Virus record (IMG/VR): IMGVR_UViG_3300023174_000130
Location: 19,216 to 83,215 of that record
Origin: a virus
Strand: one strand, 5' to 3'
DNA length: 64,000 bases
Under the pieces are notes generated by a model, which was given only the letters and a program-made list of their open reading frames with translations, did no database searches and had not been told where the DNA came from. A program made the position numbers and the translations under genes. Below are positions 1,219-63,629 of this stretch, one piece after another. Every line of letters starts with the position of its first letter. Position 1 is the stretch's first letter.

Positions 1219-1371
1219 TTAATCAAAGTCTTTACGATAAACACTATCGTTAAGTTGCTGCTTTTGTTCATGCCGATTGCCACGAACATTTCTCTTCTGT
1301 TGTTTCTTGCTCAAGCCAGTAGGCTTATTCTTGCGACGATTTTTAAACTTTTCAAAACTCTCTTCATTCAT
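1219..1371 (-). CDS. small basic protein of unknown function between gp46 and gp45
   Basis: Fifty residues starting MNEESFEKFKNRRKNK and rich in Lys, Arg and Gln (KKQQKRNVRGN). A longer in-frame start at 1491 would run deep into gp46, so I chose the ATG at 1371. It is preceded by TATAAT six bases upstream and by a late box at 1409-1416. I do not recognise the family. Its charge suggests nucleic-acid or polymerase binding, but that is only inference. The position, next to clamp and recombination genes, is one where T4-like phages often carry a small ORF. Confidence 0.6.
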   Translation of the reverse strand: MNEESFEKFKNRRKNKPTGLSKKQQKRNVRGNRHEQKQQLNDSVYRKDFD

Positions 1372-3133: not shown

Positions 3134-4176
3134 TCTTCATCCTTTGATAGTGCATTATTATACGCTTCATCTATGATACGTGCAAGAAACTTCTTGTCAA
3201 TAGACTTTTCCTGAATAGTCTCAAGTTCTTCGTGTAGAAGTTGGAGAGTATCCTTATGAACATCTACGGCTACCAGTTCAGGGTTTGCAGATACCTCTTC
3301 AGTCACTGCCAGTTCTGCCACGCCTGCTTCATAGAATTTATCCATGTATTTTTCAAAACTCGCAGCCTTCGTGCGCTTCTTGATAAAAATCTTGACATAG
3401 CAGTCCTTGAACTTTGAGTAGTCAAGTTTTTCTGGTTCGTCTTCATTATAATCAAACGTATAGAATAACTTTTTGTTATTTTCGACAAATACCAGTTCTC
3501 TAGCCAAAAAGTCAAATGTGTGGAATCCCTTTGGTTCCCATACATCCGAGAAAGCCATCTGGTATTGCGTCCCCAGATAATGAATATTGTCACGAGTGGA
3601 CTTAATATGATAATGCCCAGTAAGAACGTATTCAAACTTGTCGAAGTGTTTGGGGTCATATCCTTGCTCTATAAAGATACCACGAATACTCTGAAATCCA
3701 AATAATTCCAGATGTCCCATAAGAAGAGAGCATGTGGTATTGGTGATAAACTTTGCTGCCTGTCCTTCATTTTCTGGATTGATCCACGGTAGAAGAGCAA
3801 CGCAACCTGCTGAGGTTTGAATCTCTGTTGGCTCAGAATAGATTTCCCAGTTTTGATATGGGGCAACCAACTCATGCAATGAATTTACATTGTTATTATT
3901 GCGATAATAAGTATCATGATTACCACAAATGGCAATGCATTTTACTCCCATGTCTCTTAAAGGTTCAAAGAACCTAGTTCTGACTTGATGTAGTGTCTTA
4001 AAGTTTATATACTTTCTACGGTCAAAAACATCTCCCAGATGGAAGATGGTCTTGATGTTGTTTTCCTTCAAATAAGGAAACAATTGTTCTTCAAAAAATG
4101 ATAAAAAGTATTCAAGTACGATAGGAGAATCGGCCTTATAGCCGAAATGAGTATCGTTAAGAATTATTGCTTTCAT
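3130..4176 (-). CDS. gp47: recombination endonuclease subunit (Mre11/SbcD-like phosphoesterase)
   Basis: At 348 residues it matches T4 gp47 (339). Calcineurin-like phosphoesterase motifs appear in order: NDTHFGYK, LGDVFDRRK, CGNHDTYYRN, MGHLELFG and LTGHYHIKS. Together they supply the two-metal site. It partners gp46, whose gene begins four bases before this one ends. Its own start overlaps the gp55 stop, so the three are translationally coupled. Confidence 0.95.
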   Translation of the reverse strand: MKAIILNDTHFGYKADSPIVLEYFLSFFEEQLFPYLKENNIKTIFHLGDVFDRRKYINFKTLHQVRTRFFEPLRDMGVKCIAICGNHDTYYRNNNNVNSLHELVAPYQNWEIYSEPTEIQTSAGCVALLPWINPENEGQAAKFITNTTCSLLMGHLELFGFQSIRGIFIEQGYDPKHFDKFEYVLTGHYHIKSTRDNIHYLGTQYQMAFSDVWEPKGFHTFDFLARELVFVENNKKLFYTFDYNEDEPEKLDYSKFKDCYVKIFIKKRTKAASFEKYMDKFYEAGVAELAVTEEVSANPELVAVDVHKDTLQLLHEELETIQEKSIDKKFLARIIDEAYNNALSKDEE

Positions 4177-4742
4177 ATGTCAAGAGTATCTTTTTTAGAT
4201 TTTCTTTTTCTTTTAATAGAAGTTTTGGCTGGCTTTAACATATCATCAAATCGTTTCATGTCAAGATCAGTCAAGCCAAAGAAATCTCTTCGTCCTATAT
4301 CGATACCAGCATAAGTTTCATTAAACCAGTTATGAAAATCTTTATCATTCTGCTGTTCTGCGTATTTGTACTGCGTGTACTTTTCTTTCTTTTCTTTGTT
4401 TATAATACGCACAAAAGAAAACCAGCAAATCTGTGTTAGATAGCCAAATGGGCTAGTAGACTTGCTGGGGTCAAAGTTATCAATATAAGTTATGCAATTT
4501 AATACTGCATCTGATACCATCTCTTCTCTATACGGATAATTTGCAAAATTTGGTCTGAATGATAAACGTGATGCTATTTTTAAAACACATTCACCTATAA
4601 AATCAGGTAACTTTGGTTTCTTTCTTCCAGCATTTTCGGCATCATCACGCTTTTTACGATATTCTACTAAAGCATCATATAGTTCTTGATTACTTACGTA
4701 ATCTGCATCCGATGCTTTCTTTTTCTTTTTAGGTTGTTTCAC
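4173..4742 (-). CDS. gp55: late-transcription sigma factor
   Basis: At 189 residues it matches T4 gp55 (185), the divergent sigma factor that lets host RNA polymerase recognise TATAAATA late promoters. The helical block NFDPSKSTSPFGYLTQIC followed by WFSFVRIINKEKKEK corresponds to the sigma-2-like region. N- and C-termini are lysine-rich. The start is a GTG, chosen because TATAAT ends six bases before it, so the mRNA should begin at or next to this GTG. It heads the gp55-47-46-45-44 operon and is separated by only 53 bases from the glycan cassette upstream. Its targets are listed as late boxes below. Confidence 0.92.
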   Translation of the reverse strand: MKQPKKKKKASDADYVSNQELYDALVEYRKKRDDAENAGRKKPKLPDFIGECVLKIASRLSFRPNFANYPYREEMVSDAVLNCITYIDNFDPSKSTSPFGYLTQICWFSFVRIINKEKKEKYTQYKYAEQQNDKDFHNWFNETYAGIDIGRRDFFGLTDLDMKRFDDMLKPAKTSIKRKRKSKKDTLDI

Positions 4743-4748
4743 AATAGT

Positions 4749-4776
4749 ATTATACTATAAAAAATTAAATTGTCAA
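4749..4776 (-). promoter_or_regulatory. strong early-type promoter for gp55-gp47-gp46
   Basis: Minus strand: TTGACA, 16 bases, TATAAT, six bases, GTG start of gp55. Both hexamers match the sigma70 consensus. Start-point prediction puts +1 on or beside the initiation codon. Confidence 0.85.
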
Positions 4777-14621: not shown

Positions 14622-14649
14622 TTGACTTTTTTCTAAGGTACTTTATACT
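14622..14649 (+). promoter_or_regulatory. early-type promoter of uvsY
   Basis: TTGACT, 16 bases, TATACT, then nine bases to the ATG at 14659. No Shine-Dalgarno sequence fits between, so the mRNA has a leader of at most about three bases. Confidence 0.72.
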
Positions 14650-14658
14650 ACAAACCAA

Positions 14659-15096
14659 ATGAATCTAGAAGACCTCAAGAATAATATTACTAAAGATTCC
14701 CAAATAGACTCTACAGAATTAGGTGTAGAGGCTCTTAAGATACCTCAAGTACACGCCAAATATCTTAATATGCTTACAGATTTTAAATTGCTTTTGACCA
14801 AGCATCAAAATGATTATGCAATTCAACGATTGCGTAAGTGGAAAATATTGACTGGCAAAGCATCCAAAGAAGAACTGGAAGCATGGGGAGAAGAACCCTT
14901 TGATTTGGATCTACTCAAAACTGATGTAGAAAAGTTCATTGAGGGTGATCCTAAGATTGTTGAATTAAAGTCCAAAGTGGCTGTCAACGAAATTAAGGTC
15001 AAGATGGTAGAAGAGTTCTTGAAGGCCATCAACAACCGAAACTTCAACATCAAGTCTGCCATTGACTGGCAAAAAATGATGAACGGTATAGTATAA
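14659..15096 (+). CDS. uvsY: recombination mediator UvsY
   Basis: At 145 residues it matches T4 UvsY (137). UvsY loads the UvsX recombinase on gp32-coated single-stranded DNA. The N-terminus MNLEDLKNNITKDSQIDSTE parallels T4 MRLEDLQEELKKDVFIDST. The middle is helical and lysine-rich, and the C-terminus NIKSAIDWQKMMNG keeps the helical ending of the family. It is followed by uvsW within 10 bases, the usual T4-like pairing. Confidence 0.85.
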   Translation: MNLEDLKNNITKDSQIDSTELGVEALKIPQVHAKYLNMLTDFKLLLTKHQNDYAIQRLRKWKILTGKASKEELEAWGEEPFDLDLLKTDVEKFIEGDPKIVELKSKVAVNEIKVKMVEEFLKAINNRNFNIKSAIDWQKMMNGIV

Positions 15097-31789: not shown

Positions 31790-32865
31790 TGTTCGTATAC
31801 CAAATTTATTCCTGCAACAGATCTTGCTCCCAAATAAGCCATCAATGTTGTTTGATTAGTTGATGATAATCCAGTAACATAAACTTTTACTCTACCCGGT
31901 ATACAACAATCATTTTGAACTGTTACCAATGATGAATCCGATGTTCCAGAAATACTTGAGCCCACAATCGCATTAACATAATCATTTAATGTAACACATC
32001 TATCTTGACCTGTGGCTTTAAATAACAATCTACTTCTGGCTTCAGTGACTGATATTTCATCATAACCTCCAGCAGGTACAGTCGTAGCTACAAATGCTGC
32101 ATCTGATCTAGCAGTAATTGTAGCATTATTTGCTGCTGCACCATTGGATACAACTGCACGAACTAGAACAGTACTTGTAGTAGGTATTTCTTTAGCAGTA
32201 ATAAAATTATTTGTTACAATATAGCCCTGTGGACCGTTAATAACGGTAAATGTTTGATTGTTATCTGTTGTAGAAGTTGTTCCTTTGTCAACTCTTGTCC
32301 ATTTAGTTATTACTCCAGTACCAGTAACAGTTTCATAAAAACTAATGGTTCGGGGATCTACTGTATAAGGTAACTCGCATGATTGGGTTGCATAATCATA
32401 ATTGGTATAACTTGTTACACTTTTTCCAGAATAAAGATTAATAGATTTACTTTGACTTGGTAAAACAGAATCTATATTAAAGAAATATGTCTGTGCTGCT
32501 GTTGTAGTTGTTGCTAGAAAAGTAGCATAATCTTCAAGAGTTGCACCAATTGCAGTAACAGTTCTATTGGTAGAAGCTCCTTGTACTGGAGCAATCAATA
32601 CAGAACTATTAGCTGCAATCCCCAGTATGCTTTGCATTAAAGTAGTAGTTGTTGCAAATGAATTCACATATCCAAATTGTGCATATATGCCATTATAAGC
32701 CGTGGCAGTAGCCAAAATATTAATCAACATGTTTGCAGCACTGGCATTATTTTCAAAATCAATGTCAGCTAAATCAGGTTGCTGTTTAAAAAATTTAATC
32801 AAAGAGGCTCTAATATCACTAAAATCTAATGATGCAACATTAAGATTTTTTAACTGGTATGTCAT
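31786..32865 (-). CDS. gp6: baseplate wedge protein (gp6/gpJ family)
   Basis: 359 residues, against 660 in T4. The N-terminus LNVASLDFSDIRASLIKFF, DIDFENNASAANMLINILA and TLMQSILGIAANSSV is typical of gp6. It ends with a VKVYVTGLS-like strand. Overlaps of one and four bases link it to gp25 and the gpI-like gene. In T4, gp6 dimers form the wedge core ring. Confidence 0.85.
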   Translation of the reverse strand: MTYQLKNLNVASLDFSDIRASLIKFFKQQPDLADIDFENNASAANMLINILATATAYNGIYAQFGYVNSFATTTTLMQSILGIAANSSVLIAPVQGASTNRTVTAIGATLEDYATFLATTTTAAQTYFFNIDSVLPSQSKSINLYSGKSVTSYTNYDYATQSCELPYTVDPRTISFYETVTGTGVITKWTRVDKGTTSTTDNNQTFTVINGPQGYIVTNNFITAKEIPTTSTVLVRAVVSNGAAANNATITARSDAAFVATTVPAGGYDEISVTEARSRLLFKATGQDRCVTLNDYVNAIVGSSISGTSDSSLVTVQNDCCIPGRVKVYVTGLSSTNQTTLMAYLGARSVAGINLVYEQ

Positions 32866-33245
32866 TATAGTTCTACCTCTATCGTTGTGCTAGAATTTGA
32901 CTGCCCATTAATTCCATTATTTAATGAATAAGTTATAAAAAATTGAAATACTGTATCAGATGCATAGTCCAATCTGACTTTAACATCATTCATTACTGGG
33001 ATAGCAGATTCTATGTACGCTGCTAAACCAGATTCCAATGGACCCACTTGGGCTTGGCCAGAAAATATATAACTAAAATAATCTGATCCCAAATTCATAT
33101 TTGAAACAAGTTCACCTTTTTGTGTTTTGAGAACATTTTCAATATATTGAGAATAAGCATTAAATCCGCTCACCATACCAATATCTTTTTTAGAAGATTT
33201 GGAATTAACTTTTTCTAATAATATTGAAAAATCTTTGAGCGCCAT
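32865..33245 (-). CDS. gp25: baseplate wedge protein (gp25/lysozyme-like fold)
   Basis: 126 residues starting MALKDFSILLEKVN. The ATG at 33245 was chosen over 33293 because it lies five bases after a TATAAATA box. NVLKTQKGELVSNMNLGSDY and YIESAIPVMNDVKVRLDYAS are family signatures. It bridges sheath and wedge. Confidence 0.88.
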   Translation of the reverse strand: MALKDFSILLEKVNSKSSKKDIGMVSGFNAYSQYIENVLKTQKGELVSNMNLGSDYFSYIFSGQAQVGPLESGLAAYIESAIPVMNDVKVRLDYASDTVFQFFITYSLNNGINGQSNSSTTIEVEL

Positions 33246-33250
33246 AATAA

Positions 33251-33258
33251 TATTTATA
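33251..33258 (-). promoter_or_regulatory. late promoter, leaderless, for gp25
   Basis: Perfect TATAAATA on the minus strand, then TTATT and ATG: a five-base gap. Confidence 0.7.
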
Positions 33259-41060: not shown

Positions 41061-41088
41061 ATTATGTATCACAGTTTCATTTAGTCAA
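41061..41088 (-). promoter_or_regulatory. early-type promoter of gp32 (long leader)
   Basis: Minus strand: TTGACT, 16 bases, CATAAT, predicted start about 40 bases before the ATG. It overlaps the 3' end of gp33. Confidence 0.6.
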
Positions 41089-41314
41089 GCGGAAGCCGTT
41101 TGGATTTCTTCTTCTTGAGCAAATGAAGATTGTTGGCTTCTTGTTGAATTTTTTCGACAATTGGTTTTGTTAGAAGTTTTCCAGCTGCGCTGGGATCCAG
41201 ACCCATTTCTTCTGAAATTTCTAACACACAATCCATAAATGTCATTTGTGTTATTTTTACTCTGTTTATAACTTTATTTGAAAATTGTTCTTTTGCGGAT
41301 TCATCTATGTACAT
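41081..41314 (-). CDS. gp33: late transcription co-activator
   Basis: 77 residues, shorter than T4 gp33 (112) but like cyanophage gp33. MYIDESAKEQFSNKVINRVK, MTFMDCVLEISEEMGLDP and EANNLHLLKKKK form the helical, polymerase-binding protein that connects RNA polymerase to the gp45 clamp. It is just upstream of gp32. An early promoter sits five bases before its ATG. Confidence 0.8.
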   Translation of the reverse strand: MYIDESAKEQFSNKVINRVKITQMTFMDCVLEISEEMGLDPSAAGKLLTKPIVEKIQQEANNLHLLKKKKSKRLPLD

Positions 41315-53181: not shown

Positions 53182-53544
53182 TTAACTTAACGTTAGGAGA
53201 TACTTGGTTTGTTGTACGACTCCAAGCATCTCATCACGTATATTTAACAGTTCTGTTTGTGAAGGATCTATTTCTTTTGGAAGTTCATTCATTAAATAAT
53301 CTTCAAAAGAATTTAATACTTGATTTGCATTTGTGCGATATGGACCATTGAGTTGAAGTTCGCTAATTTGTTTGAGTTCTTCTTTGCCAAGAGCACCCAT
53401 ATATGTCTCAGCAAAGGTATCCAAAAGACCATCGATAGCCTCATATGCCTTTCCTAAAGCTTTATGTGCGGCATAAGATTTAGTACCCCAGTGATGAAGT
53501 CTAAGTTCGTTTTCAAAATTTAAAATAGTTTTAATGCAAGACAT
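53182..53544 (-). CDS. Dps/ferritin-like DUF5856-type protein
   Basis: 120 residues. The N-terminal LHHWGTKSYAAHKALGKAYE and TFAETYMGALGKE carry the helical pattern and His/Glu residues of the DUF5856 family, which resembles ferritin-like starvation proteins. It may bind metal or DNA. It precedes the 52806 gene within 11 bases. Confidence 0.6.
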   Translation of the reverse strand: MSCIKTILNFENELRLHHWGTKSYAAHKALGKAYEAIDGLLDTFAETYMGALGKEELKQISELQLNGPYRTNANQVLNSFEDYLMNELPKEIDPSQTELLNIRDEMLGVVQQTKYLLTLS

Positions 53545-53759
53545 TAATATTTCCTGTGTTTGTGTTCTTGTGAAAAAGTTATAAAATCTTCTGGTACATC
53601 TTCTGGATTTCGCTCAGCTCTTTTTTGTGCTTTACGATACTCAGGATCGGTTAGAAGGAGAGGGGTTACCTCTCCTGTAGAATCTAAATGAGCCACAAAA
53701 TAATAACTGGCACATTCAGTTGGTTTTTTCTTTTTATTTTGAATTTTACCTCGTGCCAT
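53544..53759 (-). CDS. small protein, unknown
   Basis: 71 residues, basic N-terminus (MARGKIQNKKKKPTE) followed by YYFVAHLDSTGEVTPLLLTD and a charged tail. It has a TATAAATA box five bases before the ATG, so it and the Dps-like gene are late and leaderless. Not recognised. Confidence 0.45.
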   Translation of the reverse strand: MARGKIQNKKKKPTECASYYFVAHLDSTGEVTPLLLTDPEYRKAQKRAERNPEDVPEDFITFSQEHKHRKY

Positions 53760-53764
53760 AAAAA

Positions 53765-53772
53765 TATTTATA
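53765..53772 (-). promoter_or_regulatory. late promoter, leaderless, for the 53544 gene
   Basis: TATAAATA on the minus strand, TTTTT, ATG: a five-base gap. Confidence 0.7.
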
Positions 53773-55610: not shown

Positions 55611-56644
55611 ATTTCGTGATTCTCAAAAATATTGTTTATAGTACGATTGACCTTAACCATTGTACCACGCGAATACAAGTCAGGCAAGTTAAAAGCACCA
55701 ACATACGAACAAGCAGAGCGCAATCCACCAAGAATTTCTTGAACGGTGTGATGTACAGATCCACGATAAGGTACTTCCACAGTGCGGCCCTCGGAAGCAC
55801 GGTAATCCTTAAGTCCGCCATTGTATTTTTCATTTGCGGTTTTGCTGGACATACCATAATGAAGCATAGTGAGTGATGCGTTATTATTGGAGTGACGAAT
55901 TTCTCCACCACACTCGTCATGTCCTGCAAATGCACCTCCAGCCATAACAAATGCAGTCCCAGCCACAAAAGACTTAGCAAAATCGCCGGGATGTACAATC
56001 CCTCCATCAGATACGATCCCAATACCTAACGCTGTTGCGGTTTCCACACACTCTATGACCGCTGAGAGTTGGGGATATCCCACTCCGGCTACTCTGCGTG
56101 TCAGGCACATCGACCCCGACCCGATTCCCACTTTTACTAGATCTGCTCCAGCATCGGACAACGCCACGACCCCCTCTGGGGTCACGATATTCCCTGCAAT
56201 CAATATTGACTTCGGCCATTTTTGTCTCACTTTCTTTACGAAGTTATGAAATTCTGTCATGTAACCATTTGCAACATCAACACAAACAAAAGTTGGATCA
56301 TTGATTGTTGCATTATCCACAAACAATTTACTCTCTGGGTCTAACCCAAGAGTCAATGAAACGTATTTTTCTTTATCTGGATAACTGGTGGCAAAAGTAA
56401 CATAATATTCACCACCTTTCTTCAGACAGGTAATCATCTTGTAATCTGACAATACAAGAGCCATTTCGTGTGTTCCCACCGTGGACATGTTTGCCGCCAT
56501 GATCGGCACACCAGTCCAATAAGATCCGCAATTAAAAGTAGTACCAACTTCAAGATTGACATCTTTGCGAGACTTAACATCCGAAAGTCTTGGTACAATG
56601 AGTGCGTCTGAATAATCTAGTTTTGGTTCGTAGTTTACAATCAT
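55607..56644 (-). CDS. guaC: GMP reductase (GMP to IMP)
   Basis: 345 residues, the length of bacterial GuaC. VKVGIGSGSMCLTRRVAGVG contains the catalytic cysteine, followed by YPQLSAVIECVETATALGIG, SDGGIVHPGDFAKSFVAGTA, MLHYGMSSKTA, YRASEGRTVEVPYRGSVHHT and ILGGLRSACSYVGAFNL. These favour GMP reductase over IMP dehydrogenase, because no CBS-domain insertion is present. The ATG at 56644 lies eight bases after an early promoter. It converts GMP to IMP with NADPH, shifting purine pools. Confidence 0.88.
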   Translation of the reverse strand: MIVNYEPKLDYSDALIVPRLSDVKSRKDVNLEVGTTFNCGSYWTGVPIMAANMSTVGTHEMALVLSDYKMITCLKKGGEYYVTFATSYPDKEKYVSLTLGLDPESKLFVDNATINDPTFVCVDVANGYMTEFHNFVKKVRQKWPKSILIAGNIVTPEGVVALSDAGADLVKVGIGSGSMCLTRRVAGVGYPQLSAVIECVETATALGIGIVSDGGIVHPGDFAKSFVAGTAFVMAGGAFAGHDECGGEIRHSNNNASLTMLHYGMSSKTANEKYNGGLKDYRASEGRTVEVPYRGSVHHTVQEILGGLRSACSYVGAFNLPDLYSRGTMVKVNRTINNIFENHEI

Positions 56645-56652
56645 GACCGACA

Positions 56653-56680
56653 ATAATAACACATAGAAACTACTGGTCAA
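56653..56680 (-). promoter_or_regulatory. early-type promoter of guaC
   Basis: Minus strand: TTGACC, 16 bases, TATTAT, eight bases, ATG. Confidence 0.65.
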
Positions 56681-57807: not shown

Positions 57808-58026
57808 TTAATAATAACTACCAAAAGTATTATTAGATGGTTTAAAATTATCTAATAGTCCAGCTCTAAGATCTTCTAGAGGTCTCATACTATCTGGTAT
57901 TTGTGTTGGTGTAAATCCAACATTATTCTCAGACAAGTTTCTTAGGGGACTTGGAGCATTTTTATATTTTTTATGTAATAACCGAATGGTTTCTTCTAGT
58001 GATTTTCCATTATTTTTATTATACAT
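57808..58026 (-). CDS. small helical protein, unknown
   Basis: 72 residues starting MYNKNNGKSLEETIRLLHKK; the longer in-frame start at 58089 is rejected because a late box sits five bases before the ATG chosen. Ends in NTFGSYY. Not recognised. Confidence 0.5.
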   Translation of the reverse strand: MYNKNNGKSLEETIRLLHKKYKNAPSPLRNLSENNVGFTPTQIPDSMRPLEDLRAGLLDNFKPSNNTFGSYY

Positions 58027-60330: not shown

Positions 60331-60338
60331 TATAAATA
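60331..60338 (+). promoter_or_regulatory. late promoter, leaderless, for the 60344 gene
   Basis: Perfect TATAAATA, TTTTT, ATG: a five-base gap. Confidence 0.7.
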
Positions 60339-60343
60339 TTTTT

Positions 60344-60700
60344 ATGAATTACCTAACCAACTATTACAAGAACCTATCTGAGCAACTTCAAGAAAAAGTC
60401 AATTTTTTAAATCAAGCAATTTTAGAAGCTCAAAGAGAAACTGAAGATGTAATTATTGATGATGCAGAAAGAGAAGAGGGTGAAGATATTCCAACTCTTC
60501 AAGGCCGTCTTGCCAAAGGCAAGGGTGCAAAGCGTGGCAGAGAAGTTGATATTGAACCAGGACGCGCAATTCCCGGAGAATCTAAACAAACTGAAATTCA
60601 TCATGCACAAGAACTAGCAAGTGGTGATGCTGACAAAAACAACATCTATACCACAGGCAAACCAATTAAGGTCAACAAGAGCGAAATTCGCAGATCATAA
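60344..60700 (+). CDS. capsid-targeted protein C (unknown body)
   Basis: 118 residues. Residues 1-28 (MNYLTNYYKNLSEQLQEK...) match the leader of the 58601 protein and end ILE before Ala at the same position (E28). The body is different: basic (GRLAKGKGAKRGREVD), acidic and hydrophilic. Followed by a strong terminator. Confidence 0.65.
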   Translation: MNYLTNYYKNLSEQLQEKVNFLNQAILEAQRETEDVIIDDAEREEGEDIPTLQGRLAKGKGAKRGREVDIEPGRAIPGESKQTEIHHAQELASGDADKNNIYTTGKPIKVNKSEIRRS

Positions 60701-60977: not shown

Positions 60978-61145
60978 TTACTGGCCCCAGTACCAGTCCC
61001 AGTAGGTGTCTTCGTCTGGCGCCTCCGCGTACTCAACGCCTTCCTCGGTGATCCAGGCAGCATCCGGCCCGAGATTCTTCGGGCGCTGGGCGAGGCGAAC
61101 CTCAACGGGGCGGGTGGTTTCTTCGATGTGGGTGGTGCTTTCCAT
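60978..61145 (-). CDS. small acidic GC-rich early protein
   Basis: 55 residues starting MESTTHIEETTRPVEV; the start at 61145 fits the promoter (TACAAT ends six bases upstream) rather than the longer start at 61253. Acidic and aromatic (EAPDEDTYWDWYWGQ). Unknown; perhaps an inhibitor of a host protein, but that is a guess. Confidence 0.55.
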   Translation of the reverse strand: MESTTHIEETTRPVEVRLAQRPKNLGPDAAWITEEGVEYAEAPDEDTYWDWYWGQ

Positions 61146-61151
61146 GCGCGT

Positions 61152-61180
61152 ATTGTAACACAGCCGGCGACTCATTGCAA
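61152..61180 (-). promoter_or_regulatory. early promoter of the 60978 gene (leaderless)
   Basis: Minus strand: TTGCAA, 17 bases, TACAAT, six bases, ATG. Confidence 0.7.
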
Positions 61181-61210
61181 GTCGCATGGTAGAAATTTCT
61201 TTAATAACAC

Positions 61211-61239
61211 TGCTGGCCCCCCTCAGAGGGGGGCCAGCA
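61211..61239 (-). terminator. hairpin after the 61280 gene
   Basis: Thirteen-base-pair stem TGCTGGCCCCCCT with AGGGGGGCCAGCA and a three-base loop. Confidence 0.75.
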
Positions 61240-61279
61240 GGTTGGCTAGGCATTGCAGGTCACGGGCTTCCCATAGGGG

Positions 61280-61558
61280 TTACATTTCCCCCCATCCTGC
61301 GCTGGCTAGCCAGTCGTTATCGGCGTCCCAGTCTTCCCGGCTCATCCGGCTAGCCGCGTCGATGAACGCATCGTTATCAGCCTCGCGGCTGTCCTCCTCA
61401 AAGGAGGGTTCCGCGTGTTCCCCGTTCCTCTTCGCCTCGCGCTCGCGCTCCGCGTTGTCCTCGCACATCGGGCAGAGGCTGTCCGTGTAGGCGTACTCGG
61501 GGCGGTGGCAGTCGCAGGGGAAGTGTTCGTGCTCGTGGTTGTGGGTGGTGTTGCACAT
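61280..61558 (-). CDS. small Cys/His-rich GC-rich early protein
   Basis: 92 residues starting MCNTTHNHEHEHFPCDCHRP, with CPMC nearby, suggesting a zinc site of the CxC...CxxC type. The acidic middle and C-terminus end WLASAGWGEM. The start at 61558 fits the promoter (TACCAT ends six bases upstream) rather than 61576. Unknown; a regulatory role is inferred. Confidence 0.55.
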   Translation of the reverse strand: MCNTTHNHEHEHFPCDCHRPEYAYTDSLCPMCEDNAEREREAKRNGEHAEPSFEEDSREADNDAFIDAASRMSREDWDADNDWLASAGWGEM

Positions 61559-61564
61559 GCAAGT

Positions 61565-61593
61565 ATGGTAGCACACTTCGCTGCTGATGTCAA
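61565..61593 (-). promoter_or_regulatory. early promoter of the 61280 gene (leaderless)
   Basis: Minus strand: TTGACA, 17 bases, TACCAT, six bases, ATG. Confidence 0.72.
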
Positions 61594-61681
61594 CCCTTCG
61601 GAAAGAAATTTCTGTAGCGGTGCTCCTGAGTCCTAGAACAAACTTTGAGAAATGTCTTCCCGAAGGGTTGACATCAGCAGC
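61580..61681. repeat. 22-bp inverted repeat spanning two divergent early promoters
   Basis: Arms 61580-61601 and 61660-61681 are exact reverse complements (sequence CCGAAGGGTTGACATCAGCA and the last C bases), containing both -35 TTGACA hexamers. The divergent promoters are copies of one another. Confidence 0.75.
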
Positions 61682-61696
61682 AGTCTATGGTACAAT
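61668..61696 (+). promoter_or_regulatory. early promoter of the 61703 gene (leaderless)
   Basis: TTGACA, 17 bases, TACAAT, six bases, ATG. Confidence 0.75.
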
Positions 61697-61702
61697 GGTG
61701 CC

Positions 61703-62050
61703 ATGAGCACCACCACCAACCGCACCCGCATCGTCCTCCCCTTCTTCACCGACTCACTCGCCGTGCGACACAATCGCATGATGTCCCTCCTCGACTCCGG
61801 GTGGGTGCAGGTCACCTACAAGAAGGGTGACGGGCAGGTCGCCGTCCGCCTCGCCACGCGCAACCCCACGCTCGTTGCCGCCTATGGTCACGAGAGTGAC
61901 CGCACCGCCATCAGCCGCAGCGACACCGACTGGAACGCCACCGGCATCGTCTACTACTACGATTACACCAAGGGCAGCATCCGGTCATTCTATGTGGAGG
62001 AGGTCATCGAGGTCGCCATCCCGGCTGAGTGCCCGGAGAATTGCCACTAA
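61703..62050 (+). CDS. DUF2693-like small protein (paralogue 2)
   Basis: 115 residues starting MSTTTNRTRIVLPFF. VQVTYKKGDGQVAVRLATRN and GIVYYYDYTKGSIRSFYVEE fit the DUF2693 pattern and align in shape with the gene at 56867-57436. The start at 61703 follows the promoter. The gene is GC-rich, its paralogue AT-rich. Confidence 0.62.
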   Translation: MSTTTNRTRIVLPFFTDSLAVRHNRMMSLLDSGWVQVTYKKGDGQVAVRLATRNPTLVAAYGHESDRTAISRSDTDWNATGIVYYYDYTKGSIRSFYVEEVIEVAIPAECPENCH

Positions 62051-62059
62051 CCACTTCAC

Positions 62060-62096
62060 GGGGGAGAGAAAGAAATAATAAATCTTTCTCTCCCCC
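62060..62096 (+). terminator. terminator after the 61703 gene
   Basis: Fourteen-base-pair stem GGGGGAGAGAAAGA with TCTTTCTCTCCCCC around a nine-base AT loop. Confidence 0.78.
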
Positions 62097-62100
62097 CTGC

Positions 62101-62129
62101 TTGACTTCCGCCCCACGACCTGATACAAT
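62101..62129 (+). promoter_or_regulatory. early promoter of the 62136 gene (leaderless)
   Basis: TTGACT, 17 bases, TACAAT, six bases, ATG. Confidence 0.72.
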
Positions 62130-62135
62130 ACCGAC

Positions 62136-62387
62136 ATGAGCAACCGAATCACCGTCAAGGACTTGGATAGCGCCGTCATCCACCTGAACACCATGCTCGG
62201 CCTGAAGATGGGCGCAGAAGGATCCTTCTGCCTGCAGGGAGCCTACGGAGGCTGGCAACTGCAGAGGCGCATGGGTAGCGGAGTCATCGCCGTCACCACG
62301 GGCTACCGTCCGAAGCGCGAACTGTACCGGACGATCATCGACATCGGGTACGGAGTCTCCTGCACAAAGGCCGCGCCAACGAACTAA
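62136..62387 (+). CDS. conserved small phage protein, unknown
   Basis: 83 residues. VIHLNTMLGLKMG, LQGAYGGWQLQRR and GYRPKRELYRTI form a pattern I have seen in several siphovirus and actinophage small proteins of unknown function. Alone between its own promoter and the HNH region. Confidence 0.55.
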   Translation: MSNRITVKDLDSAVIHLNTMLGLKMGAEGSFCLQGAYGGWQLQRRMGSGVIAVTTGYRPKRELYRTIIDIGYGVSCTKAAPTN

Positions 62388-62406
62388 CGAGGTGGTGCTC
62401 GTACCG

Positions 62407-62473
62407 TCAGACTGGTTCCCGCAAAGGATTCGTCCGATCCTCTGATTCGTTCGGAGGTAGGGAACCAGTCTGA
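62407..62473. repeat. 14-bp inverted repeat around a structured loop
   Basis: Arms 62407-62420 (TCAGACTGGTTCCC) and 62460-62473 are exact complements. The loop itself can form AGGAT-loop-ATCCT. The repeat overlaps the 3' end of the HNH gene, whose stop is in the left arm. Function unknown (terminator, RNA or insertion scar). Confidence 0.55.
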
Positions 62474-62877
62474 TGAGCGCCCAAACTTCGGTTAAAAGTT
62501 TCAACTAAATTTGTTTCGTGGTTGAAATGTCGTAGACGGTGGCAAGTAGGACACAAAAATACACCGTTCTTTATTTCTTTATCAATCGCTGTTCTAGTTC
62601 TCCATTGCTTGGGAGAACGATTGGTAGAAGAAATAATAGTGTGGTGAAACTCCAACAAAGACGGAACACGATCCCACCCACAGTCAAAACAAGAAACCTT
62701 TAAAGAATCAATGTAAGCACAGTTTTTAGTGTAAGCATTTTTCTTATATTGTTTCTCTTGTTCCGGTGTTCGTGTATCTCGGACTTGGGCAACCTTTGCC
62801 GCAGTACAACGGCGACACCGACAACCTTTGTTGTATCCAGTACGGGGAGCATTGTTTGGAAATAAGCATTGAGTCAT
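62407..62877 (-). CDS. HNH endonuclease (homing-type)
   Basis: 156 residues. Zinc pairs appear as CRCRRC, CFDCGWD and CPTC. The HNH core is SLLEFHHTIISST and NGVFLCPTCHRLRH. Late-box driven (TATAAATA five bases before the ATG), and more AT-rich than its GC-rich neighbours. It sits between the 62136 and 63063 genes, on the opposite strand. This suggests a mobile nuclease gene inserted into the early region. Confidence 0.8.
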   Translation of the reverse strand: MTQCLFPNNAPRTGYNKGCRCRRCTAAKVAQVRDTRTPEQEKQYKKNAYTKNCAYIDSLKVSCFDCGWDRVPSLLEFHHTIISSTNRSPKQWRTRTAIDKEIKNGVFLCPTCHRLRHFNHETNLVETFNRSLGAHQTGSLPPNESEDRTNPLREPV

Positions 62878-62882
62878 ATAGC

Positions 62883-62890
62883 TATTTATA
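62883..62890 (-). promoter_or_regulatory. late promoter, leaderless, for the HNH gene
   Basis: TATAAATA on the minus strand, GCTAT, ATG: a five-base gap. Confidence 0.7.
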
Positions 62891-62910
62891 ATTGTAGCTG
62901 ACTCACTACT

Positions 62911-62935
62911 ATCAGCGGCCTCAGAGGCCGCTGAT
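62911..62935. terminator. GC-rich hairpin upstream of the HNH gene
   Basis: Eleven-base-pair stem ATCAGCGGCCT with AGGCCGCTGAT and a three-base loop. No T-run, so its role as terminator is uncertain. Confidence 0.5.
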
Positions 62936-62999
62936 GTTATGGGACTGGACGCGGAGAGCCTGATAGTAGCCGGCCCCGCTGGACGTTATCGGATGGAAA

Positions 63000-63015
63000 G
63001 AATATTATAATATTC
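63000..63015. repeat. 16-bp perfect palindrome upstream of the 63063 promoter
   Basis: GAATATTATAATATTC, 12 bases before the -35. AT-rich in a GC-rich context, so it may be an operator; no binder is known. Confidence 0.5.
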
Positions 63016-63027
63016 CGCCCCCACCCA

Positions 63028-63056
63028 TTGACATGGCCGGCATGGCATGGTACAAT
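63028..63056 (+). promoter_or_regulatory. early promoter of the 63063 operon (leaderless)
   Basis: TTGACA, 17 bases, TACAAT, six bases, ATG at 63063. Confidence 0.75.
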
Positions 63057-63062
63057 GTACGC

Positions 63063-63629
63063 ATGAGCACCACTCGCACCAACCGTTACGAAGCCGTCCG
63101 CACCAACGCCATCGAAGCCTTCATCGGCCATCTCGCATCGGCTACCCTCTTCGATTACGCCGCCGCGCAGAAGTGGTACGCCGAGGCCGGAGACTTCGCG
63201 GAGTCGCTCCGCGTCCTGCGCCCGGAGTGGAGCATGGAAGTCTCCGCGTCCGTTGTCTCCGCGTTCTCGCCCCGCGTCACTTGGCAGCACAACAAGGCGA
63301 AGGCCACCCAGTACGCGCAGGGCATCACGCCGAAGGGTCTGCGCTCCCACGTGGACGCGGCCGACCGATGCGTCCGGCAGGGCTTCAACGGCCTTCGCGG
63401 CCCAAAGACGAACGCGTTTGCCCGTGCCATCGCCGGGGATCGGGACGCGGTGGTGGTGGATGTGTGGATGTGCCGCGCTGCCGGACTGGGCAAGGATGCG
63501 CCCAACGCGACCGAGTACCGGGCAATCGCGGACGCGATCCGCACACTCGCCGGAACGGGCGCCGTCTGCATGGCACCCGCCACGCTGCAGGCCCTGCTGT
63601 GGATCATCGTTCGGGGGAAGGCCGAATGA
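63063..63629 (+). CDS. actinophage-like conserved protein (DUF7178/HhH-GPD-like pattern)
   Basis: 188 residues starting MSTTRTNRYEAVRTNA. SASVVSAFSPRVTWQHNKAK, GFNGLRGPKTNAFARAIAG and AVVVDVWMCRAAGLGKDAPN resemble DUF7178-type proteins in actinophages; the 'VVDVWM' end of a helical pair recalls HhH-GPD base-excision enzymes. The start at 63063 (not 63033) follows the promoter. Function unknown. Confidence 0.5.
   Translation: MSTTRTNRYEAVRTNAIEAFIGHLASATLFDYAAAQKWYAEAGDFAESLRVLRPEWSMEVSASVVSAFSPRVTWQHNKAKATQYAQGITPKGLRSHVDAADRCVRQGFNGLRGPKTNAFARAIAGDRDAVVVDVWMCRAAGLGKDAPNATEYRAIADAIRTLAGTGAVCMAPATLQALLWIIVRGKAE

Follow-up and report, generated by a model that had tools for sequence, protein, structure and literature searches.

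The DNA analysed here (hereafter, the window) is a stretch of 64,000 nucleotides corresponding to bases 19216-83215 of the 83,215-base IMG/VR virus record IMGVR_UViG_3300023174_000130, and its right edge is the end of the contig. The window encodes a gp23-like major head protein, UvsY, a UvsW-type helicase and the late sigma factor gp55, a gene set that identifies a T4-like myophage, and it holds both late-promoter factors, gp55 (phrog_234) and gp33 (phrog_254). The best matches of the head protein and gp55 are to T4-like cyanophages and a pelagiphage, with identities of no more than 53%. GC content is approximately 60% in the final 3 kb of the record, compared with approximately 35% over most of it, and this GC-rich segment carries a series of small genes whose promoters appear to be placed so that transcription would begin on the start codon itself, yielding messenger RNAs (mRNAs) that lack a 5' leader.

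An earlier note on this DNA had described five promoters in the segment, each with a TTGACA-like -35 element, a 17-base spacer, a TACAAT or TACCAT -10 element, six further bases and an ATG, such that a start seven bases past the -10 hexamer falls on the A of the ATG. All five sites are present as described, on both strands, although the positions by which they had been named mix two reference points: 61152 and 61565 are ends of -10 elements, whereas 61668, 62101 and 63028 are starts of -35 elements. The start codons lie at 61145 (-), 61558 (-), 61703 (+), 62136 (+) and 63063 (+). Direct reading also bears out that a ribosome site is lacking, as the 20 bases upstream of each ATG contain no Shine-Dalgarno (SD)-like motif of the AGGAG or GGAGG type. 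Across all 83 kb of the record, a strict form of the pattern has four matches, compared with none in the reversed control; the fifth site (61180-61152), with its weak -35 TTGCAA, falls outside it. The promoters and their predicted leaderless open reading frames (ORFs) are as follows.

61152-61180, minus strand: promoter TTGCAA-N17-TACAAT-N6-ATG(61145); same arrangement in the ortholog L008 4193 (-)
60978-61145, minus strand: predicted leaderless ORF of 55 amino acids (MESTTHIE...); no family match; belongs to a family of 3 members with gaps ACGCGC/ACGCGT
61565-61593, minus strand: promoter TTGACA-N17-TACCAT-N6-ATG(61558), strict pattern
61280-61558, minus strand: predicted leaderless ORF of 92 amino acids (MCNTTHNHEHEHFPC...); 8-member family with six further gap sequences, each of 6 bases
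61668-61696, plus strand: promoter TTGACA-N17-TACAAT-N6-ATG(61703), strict pattern
61703-62050, plus strand: predicted leaderless ORF of 115 amino acids; family match to WYL_2 domain (PF10902), phrog_1086
62101-62129, plus strand: promoter TTGACT-N17-TACAAT-N6-ATG(62136), strict pattern
62136-62387, plus strand: predicted leaderless ORF of 83 amino acids; family match to phrog_15513 (unknown function)
63028-63056, plus strand: promoter TTGACA-N17-TACAAT-N6-ATG(63063), strict pattern; kept in DUF7178 orthologs that retain the upstream region
63063-63629, plus strand: predicted leaderless ORF of 188 amino acids; family match to DUF7178 (PF23802)

The DUF7178 gene led to 19 further loci in IMG/VR, and the AT-to-GC junction and the GC-rich island recur in most of these, also inside longer records (G002, G003). 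In five whole or nearly whole records (G000-G004), the island spans approximately 8-16 kb, and the AT-rich genome around it reaches up to 146 kb. No similarity was found between island DNA and named phages, and no relatives of the WYL_2 protein were detected by exact-peptide scan or tblastn. A search of IMG/VR for TTGACA-N16-18-TACAAT-N6-ATG gave many single matches and one dense contig (L037/G001, 8 matches); thus it is dense arrays, and not a single motif, that mark the lineage.

Comparison of the intervals across relatives, the check that the earlier note had proposed, strongly favors its claim, as the six-base gap is kept at 123 sites in 20 records. The GC-rich parts of these records contain 198 non-identical promoter-like sites. 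The first ATG follows at gap 6 in 125 of these and at gap 7 in another 13, and the 123 sites are those gap-6 cases that open ORFs of at least 40 amino acids. Nearly all DUF7178 orthologs with an upstream region have their ATG six bases past TACAAT, TATCAT or TATAAT, while the six bases themselves vary (GTACGC, ACTTCC, TCTCGC, GGGGGC, ACGCGC, ACACAC, GCGGGC, CATTGC, TCGGGC, ACCGTC and ACACGC). The 131 distinct proteins encoded downstream of the 123 gap-6 and nine gap-7 sites fall into 37 blastp families; gap 6 is kept over more than 30 unrelated families, with spacer and gap sequences drifting at constant gap length. In the 17 families with at least two members, spacer length varies in nine, but gap length in only one (CobS-like, 6 or 7). 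GC-rich blocks of the five records hold 66 gap-6 ATG sites, compared with a mean of 0.05 after dinucleotide shuffling (maximum 1 in 20 shuffles), and the placement is therefore far beyond chance. The AT-rich blocks of the same records give a weaker signal, partly diffuse over gaps 5-8, with 29 gap-6 sites compared with 10.6 after shuffling and with gaps 5, 7 and 8 also raised. Because the relatives are homologous, the 123 sites cannot be counted as independent, and the argument rests instead on the 30 and more unrelated families, on the drift of gap sequences at constant length, and on the existence of two promoter classes (see below).

Several features indicate where transcripts of these genes would begin. 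At the 123 gap-6 sites, the ATG is preceded by C in 97% and by T in 3%, and never by a purine. Initiators usually carry a pyrimidine at -1 and a purine at +1; hence, with a pyrimidine before every gap-6 ATG, transcripts are expected to start on the ATG. The same islands also contain leadered promoters (L007 10639; L019 4827 and 5774) in which C followed by A stands at the same distance past the -10 element, followed by AAGGAG and an ATG farther downstream, as in TACAAT-ACACCC-A-ACAAGGAGACTGACC-ATG at L019 4827. These provide an internal control for the position of +1 and thereby back a start on the ATG where the ATG occupies that place. The published hallmark of leaderless genes in bacteria is a TANNNT motif approximately 12 bases upstream of the start codon (PMC3160421), and the -10 elements described here are of the form TANNNT with their first T at about -12. 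At 105 of the 123 gap-6 sites, SD-like 4-mers are absent from positions -20 to -4.

The beginnings of the coding regions are also distinctive. Codons 2-8 are composed of A34 C46 G11 T9 (80% A or C), compared with A21 C30 G31 T18 (51%) later in the genes, a typical start being ATG-ARC-ACC-ACC, and the first 36 bases fold at only -1.3 kcal/mol, compared with -8.1 for an internal stretch. CA repeats just past the start codon raise both leaderless and leadered translation in Escherichia coli, according to Martin-Farmer and Janssen (1999) as cited in PMC9031893. We infer from this composition that the phage may have tuned such genes for direct binding of ribosomes to a 5' AUG.

A second class of promoters, overlooked in the earlier note, is positioned for the same start point. 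The T4 late octamer TATAAATA spans -13 to -6 (PMC1524935). Since it ends one base nearer to +1 than the hexamer, leaderless placement calls for N5 rather than N6 before the ATG. In the five records, 17 of 88 TATAAATA octamers have an ATG at exactly N5, the next highest count at any distance being 6; when any first octamer base is allowed, the figure is 42 of 248, and octamers altered at one other position give no peak. These sites have the layout of T4-type late promoters, with the octamer at -13 to -6 of the predicted start and no required -35 element. The late class is mixed, as the major capsid gene and similar head and tail genes keep leaders of approximately 20-25 bases with an SD motif. 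In the window, the N5 sites include the following five:

60331-60346, plus strand: TATAAATA-N5-ATG opening the ORF 60344-60700
62877-62890, minus strand: TATAAATA-N5-ATG opening the HNH endonuclease ORF 62407-62877, inside the GC-rich segment
58026-58039, minus strand: TATAAATA-N5-ATG opening the ORF 57808-58026
53759-53772, minus strand: TATAAATA-N5-ATG opening the ORF 53544-53759
33245-33258, minus strand: TATAAATA-N5-ATG opening the baseplate-wedge-like ORF 32865-33245; the G002 ortholog is also at N5

Given that two promoter classes converge on the same point, leaderless mRNA is the best reading. As a separate observation, the HNH endonuclease gene (62407-62877, minus strand) is AT-rich, has a late-type promoter and is inserted within the GC-rich island, and it is likely a mobile endonuclease gene.

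The earlier note had extended the idea to five genes of the AT-rich part, namely gp55, gp33, uvsY, guaC and the gene starting at 1371. Their 16-base spacers and gaps of five to nine bases are confirmed, but exact leaderless placement under the +7 rule applies only to some of them, and not to guaC (gap 8) or uvsY (gap 9):

4742-4776, minus strand: promoter TTGACA-N16-TATAAT-N6-GTG of gp55 (gene 4173-4742, start 4742)
1219-1371, minus strand: 50-amino-acid ORF MNEESFEKF... (the 1371 gene), behind TTGTAT-N16-TATAAT-N6-ATG, read from the sequence
41081-41314, minus strand: gp33 homologue (phrog_254), start 41314, behind TTGAAT-N16-TATAAT-N5-ATG
14622-14661, plus strand: promoter TTGACT-N16-TATACT-N9-ATG of uvsY (start 14659); gap 6 in the G001 ortholog
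56644-56680, minus strand: promoter TTGACC-N16-TATTAT-N8-ATG of a guaC-like dehydrogenase gene (start 56644); ortholog gaps 8-9

Spacer 16, gap 6 and a GTG start are common to the gp55 orthologs of G000, G002, G003 and G004, and the 1371 gene likewise has gap 6 in G002 (20537) and G004 (60614). Gap 6 is also seen in a dUTPase-like gene in G000-G003, labeled from its motif alone, and in helicase-like genes in G003 and G004. These orthologs argue that leaderless starts, as predicted from promoter spacing, also occur in some of the regulatory and replication genes of the AT-rich part. SD-like motifs are rarer in AT-rich genes with such a promoter (4/37) than in others (306/619; Fisher p = 2e-6), a comparison that is supportive only, as the gene calling behind it is crude. 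A leader of 2-3 bases is likely for guaC, and both guaC and uvsY are probably short-leadered and not exactly leaderless.

We consider it very likely that these promoters are positioned to start transcription at the A of the start codon, giving mRNAs with no 5' leader. The leaderless reading put forward in the earlier note thus gains support from gap conservation at the 123 sites, the pyrimidine at -1, the lack of SD motifs, the CA-rich unfolded starts and the coincidence with late promoters. In the mechanism that we propose, a near-consensus sigma-70-type promoter with an extended -10 element (TTGACA-N17-TGnTACAAT) would drive single small genes in the island, presumably read by host RNA polymerase early in infection; assignment of the island genes to an 'early' class would follow from this host-like consensus. 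Late genes of this kind would reach the same start through the gp55-type octamer TATAAATA of the phage itself, with N5 in place of N6. Ribosomes would then bind the 5'-terminal AUG directly, as in known leaderless translation, aided by the unfolded CA-rich coding start. It is tempting to see in this a genome-wide leaderless programme of the lineage, in which early host-sigma promoters and part of the late gp55 promoters set +1 at the A of the AUG, ahead of a CA-rich enhancing start, and bypass SD-dependent initiation; we hold this broader proposal to be somewhat more probable than its contrary.

Some observations weigh against a leaderless interpretation. An SD-like 4- or 5-mer occurs at -20 to -4 in 18 of the 123 gap-6 sites, although that region would be untranscribed; about half of the ORFs have a further in-frame start upstream; and guaC (gap 8-9) and uvsY (gap 9 in the window, gap 6 in G001) deviate from the expected distance. 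Moreover, starts may vary by one or two bases around the seven-base rule, so that leaders of 1-3 bases are possible. The fixed distance might mark a near-leaderless class whose transcripts carry very short leaders of 1-5 bases, and the guaC and uvsY gaps of 8-9, the gap of 7 in CobS-like genes and the sites of pelagiphage HTVC008M, mostly at gaps 10-12, are in keeping with this. However, the sharp peaks at exactly 6 for the hexamer and 5 for the octamer, each of which puts +1 on the A of the ATG, together with the obligatory pyrimidine before it, make such a class unlikely for the set as a whole.

That the genes are instead expressed by read-through from upstream transcripts, with the promoter lying near the ATG through compact packing or as an operator site, seems very improbable. 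The upstream in-frame starts of some ORFs would suit it, as would a conserved dyad that overlaps the -10 element of the tRNA-Lys promoter in relatives, yet packing alone cannot fix a base-exact distance in more than 30 families. In addition, the genes stand back to back on both strands with no SD upstream, and the hairpin potential after their stops (-16.8 kcal/mol over 55 bases, compared with -11.7 for shuffled sequence) suggests one-gene units. The position of the segment at a contig end, and its GC content so far above that of the remainder, could also point to chance or to an assembly artefact in which a foreign GC-rich contig was joined to a T4-like phage. Such an origin is scarcely credible, as shuffled sequences yield almost no such sites, and an assembly chimera was rejected on the recurrence of junction and island in most of the other loci and in G002 and G003.

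With regard to the host, the predicted leaderless starts and the relatives of DUF7178 (73 of the 74 named phages that carry one infect Mycobacterium, Gordonia or Rhodococcus) might hint at an actinobacterial host, whereas the CobS-like island gene points to cyanophages and pelagiphages instead. A WhiB homologue is used as a marker in freshwater actinophages; none was found in 16 records, which are incomplete, so that this absence does not amount to exclusion. In two relatives, tRNA-Arg(TCT) contains a 51-base stretch whose exact matches lie mainly in Alphaproteobacteria; as the tRNAs diverge in the acceptor stem and D arm (68-70 of 75 bases), the match was set aside as generic. The freshwater actinophage literature yielded no T4-like phage of this kind.

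The islands of most relatives also carry transfer RNA (tRNA) genes for Lys (TTT), Leu (CAA), Arg (TCT) and Ile with a TAT anticodon (L007 9742-9814, L012 9541-9613, L016 9082-9154 and others), which would serve the AT-rich genes. Only 8-9 bases separate the tRNA-Lys and tRNA-Leu promoters from the tRNA 5' end, and these tRNAs may be made almost without a 5' leader. The dyad over the -10 element of the tRNA-Lys promoter, GCCCAT-CGGTTATA-ATGGGC, is conserved in L012, L016, L019 and L021 and is a possible operator. A second set of strong promoters has no start codon downstream but a common CTACTTGGT element (L016 2635, 3700, 4580, 5810 and 7205, plus strand; 4172 and 5922, minus strand); in record G002, promoters with this element possibly belong to small RNA genes or a regulatory repeat.

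Taken together, two promoter classes that rely on different sigma factors appear to give dozens of unrelated small genes of one phage lineage a base-exact 5'-AUG placement, and there are homologues elsewhere with SD leaders. They offer a natural set for asking what a phage may gain from leaderless mRNAs, be it speed, compactness, use of 70S ribosomes or escape from changes in initiation. For annotation of such phages, a simple rule would be to place the start at the ATG six bases past TANNNT or five past TATAAATA.

Known cases of leaderless mRNA are mostly individual phage genes, lambda cI being one, or a minority among the genes of a host. Lambda cI resembles the present genes in its 5'-terminal AUG but is a single well-known gene and not a genome-wide programme, and no description of leaderless genes in T4-like phages was found in the open-licence literature. 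The closest bacterial parallel is with the TA-led genes of Actinobacteria and Deinococcus-Thermus (Zheng et al., 2011; PMC3160421), which likewise have the first T of TANNNT at -12 and no SD motif; the present case differs in being a T4-like phage, with dense small-gene arrays, near-consensus -35 elements, extended -10 elements and CA-rich coding starts. CA-repeat enhancement as cited for Martin-Farmer and Janssen (1999; in PMC9031893) is alike in its CA-rich downstream region but concerns a laboratory construct. DUF7178 proteins of Rhodococcus phage Jflix2 and Mycobacterium phages Kimona and Sheen are homologous to ours (34-38% identity), yet their genes have SD leaders (GGAGG, GAGAGGA) before the ATG; the leaderless DUF7178 start, as predicted here, is a trait of the present phage lineage.

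In comparisons with named phages, no gap-6 cluster of the same promoter pattern was found in T4, Syn10, S-SKS1, Mosig or HTVC008M. Phage C48C1 (Kyanoviridae, OQ984149) has promoters at gap 7 (DNA polymerase) and gap 6 (primase and DNA methyltransferase), but these are only a few sites, and no GC-rich leaderless island was seen. The annotated start of its DNA methyltransferase directly abuts the -10 element (L204 4481-4487; OQ984149 33480-33486), and translation more likely begins at the ATG six bases downstream. The late promoters of T4 itself, served by gp55, gp33 and gp45 (PMC1524935, PMC7892883), share the TATAAATA octamer, and the window encodes homologues of gp55 and gp33; however, approximately one octamer in five has an ATG at N5 here, compared with at most one among 12 matches in T4. 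In HTVC008M, 5 of 14 late octamers stand at N5, and late leaderless placement may therefore extend beyond the present lineage.

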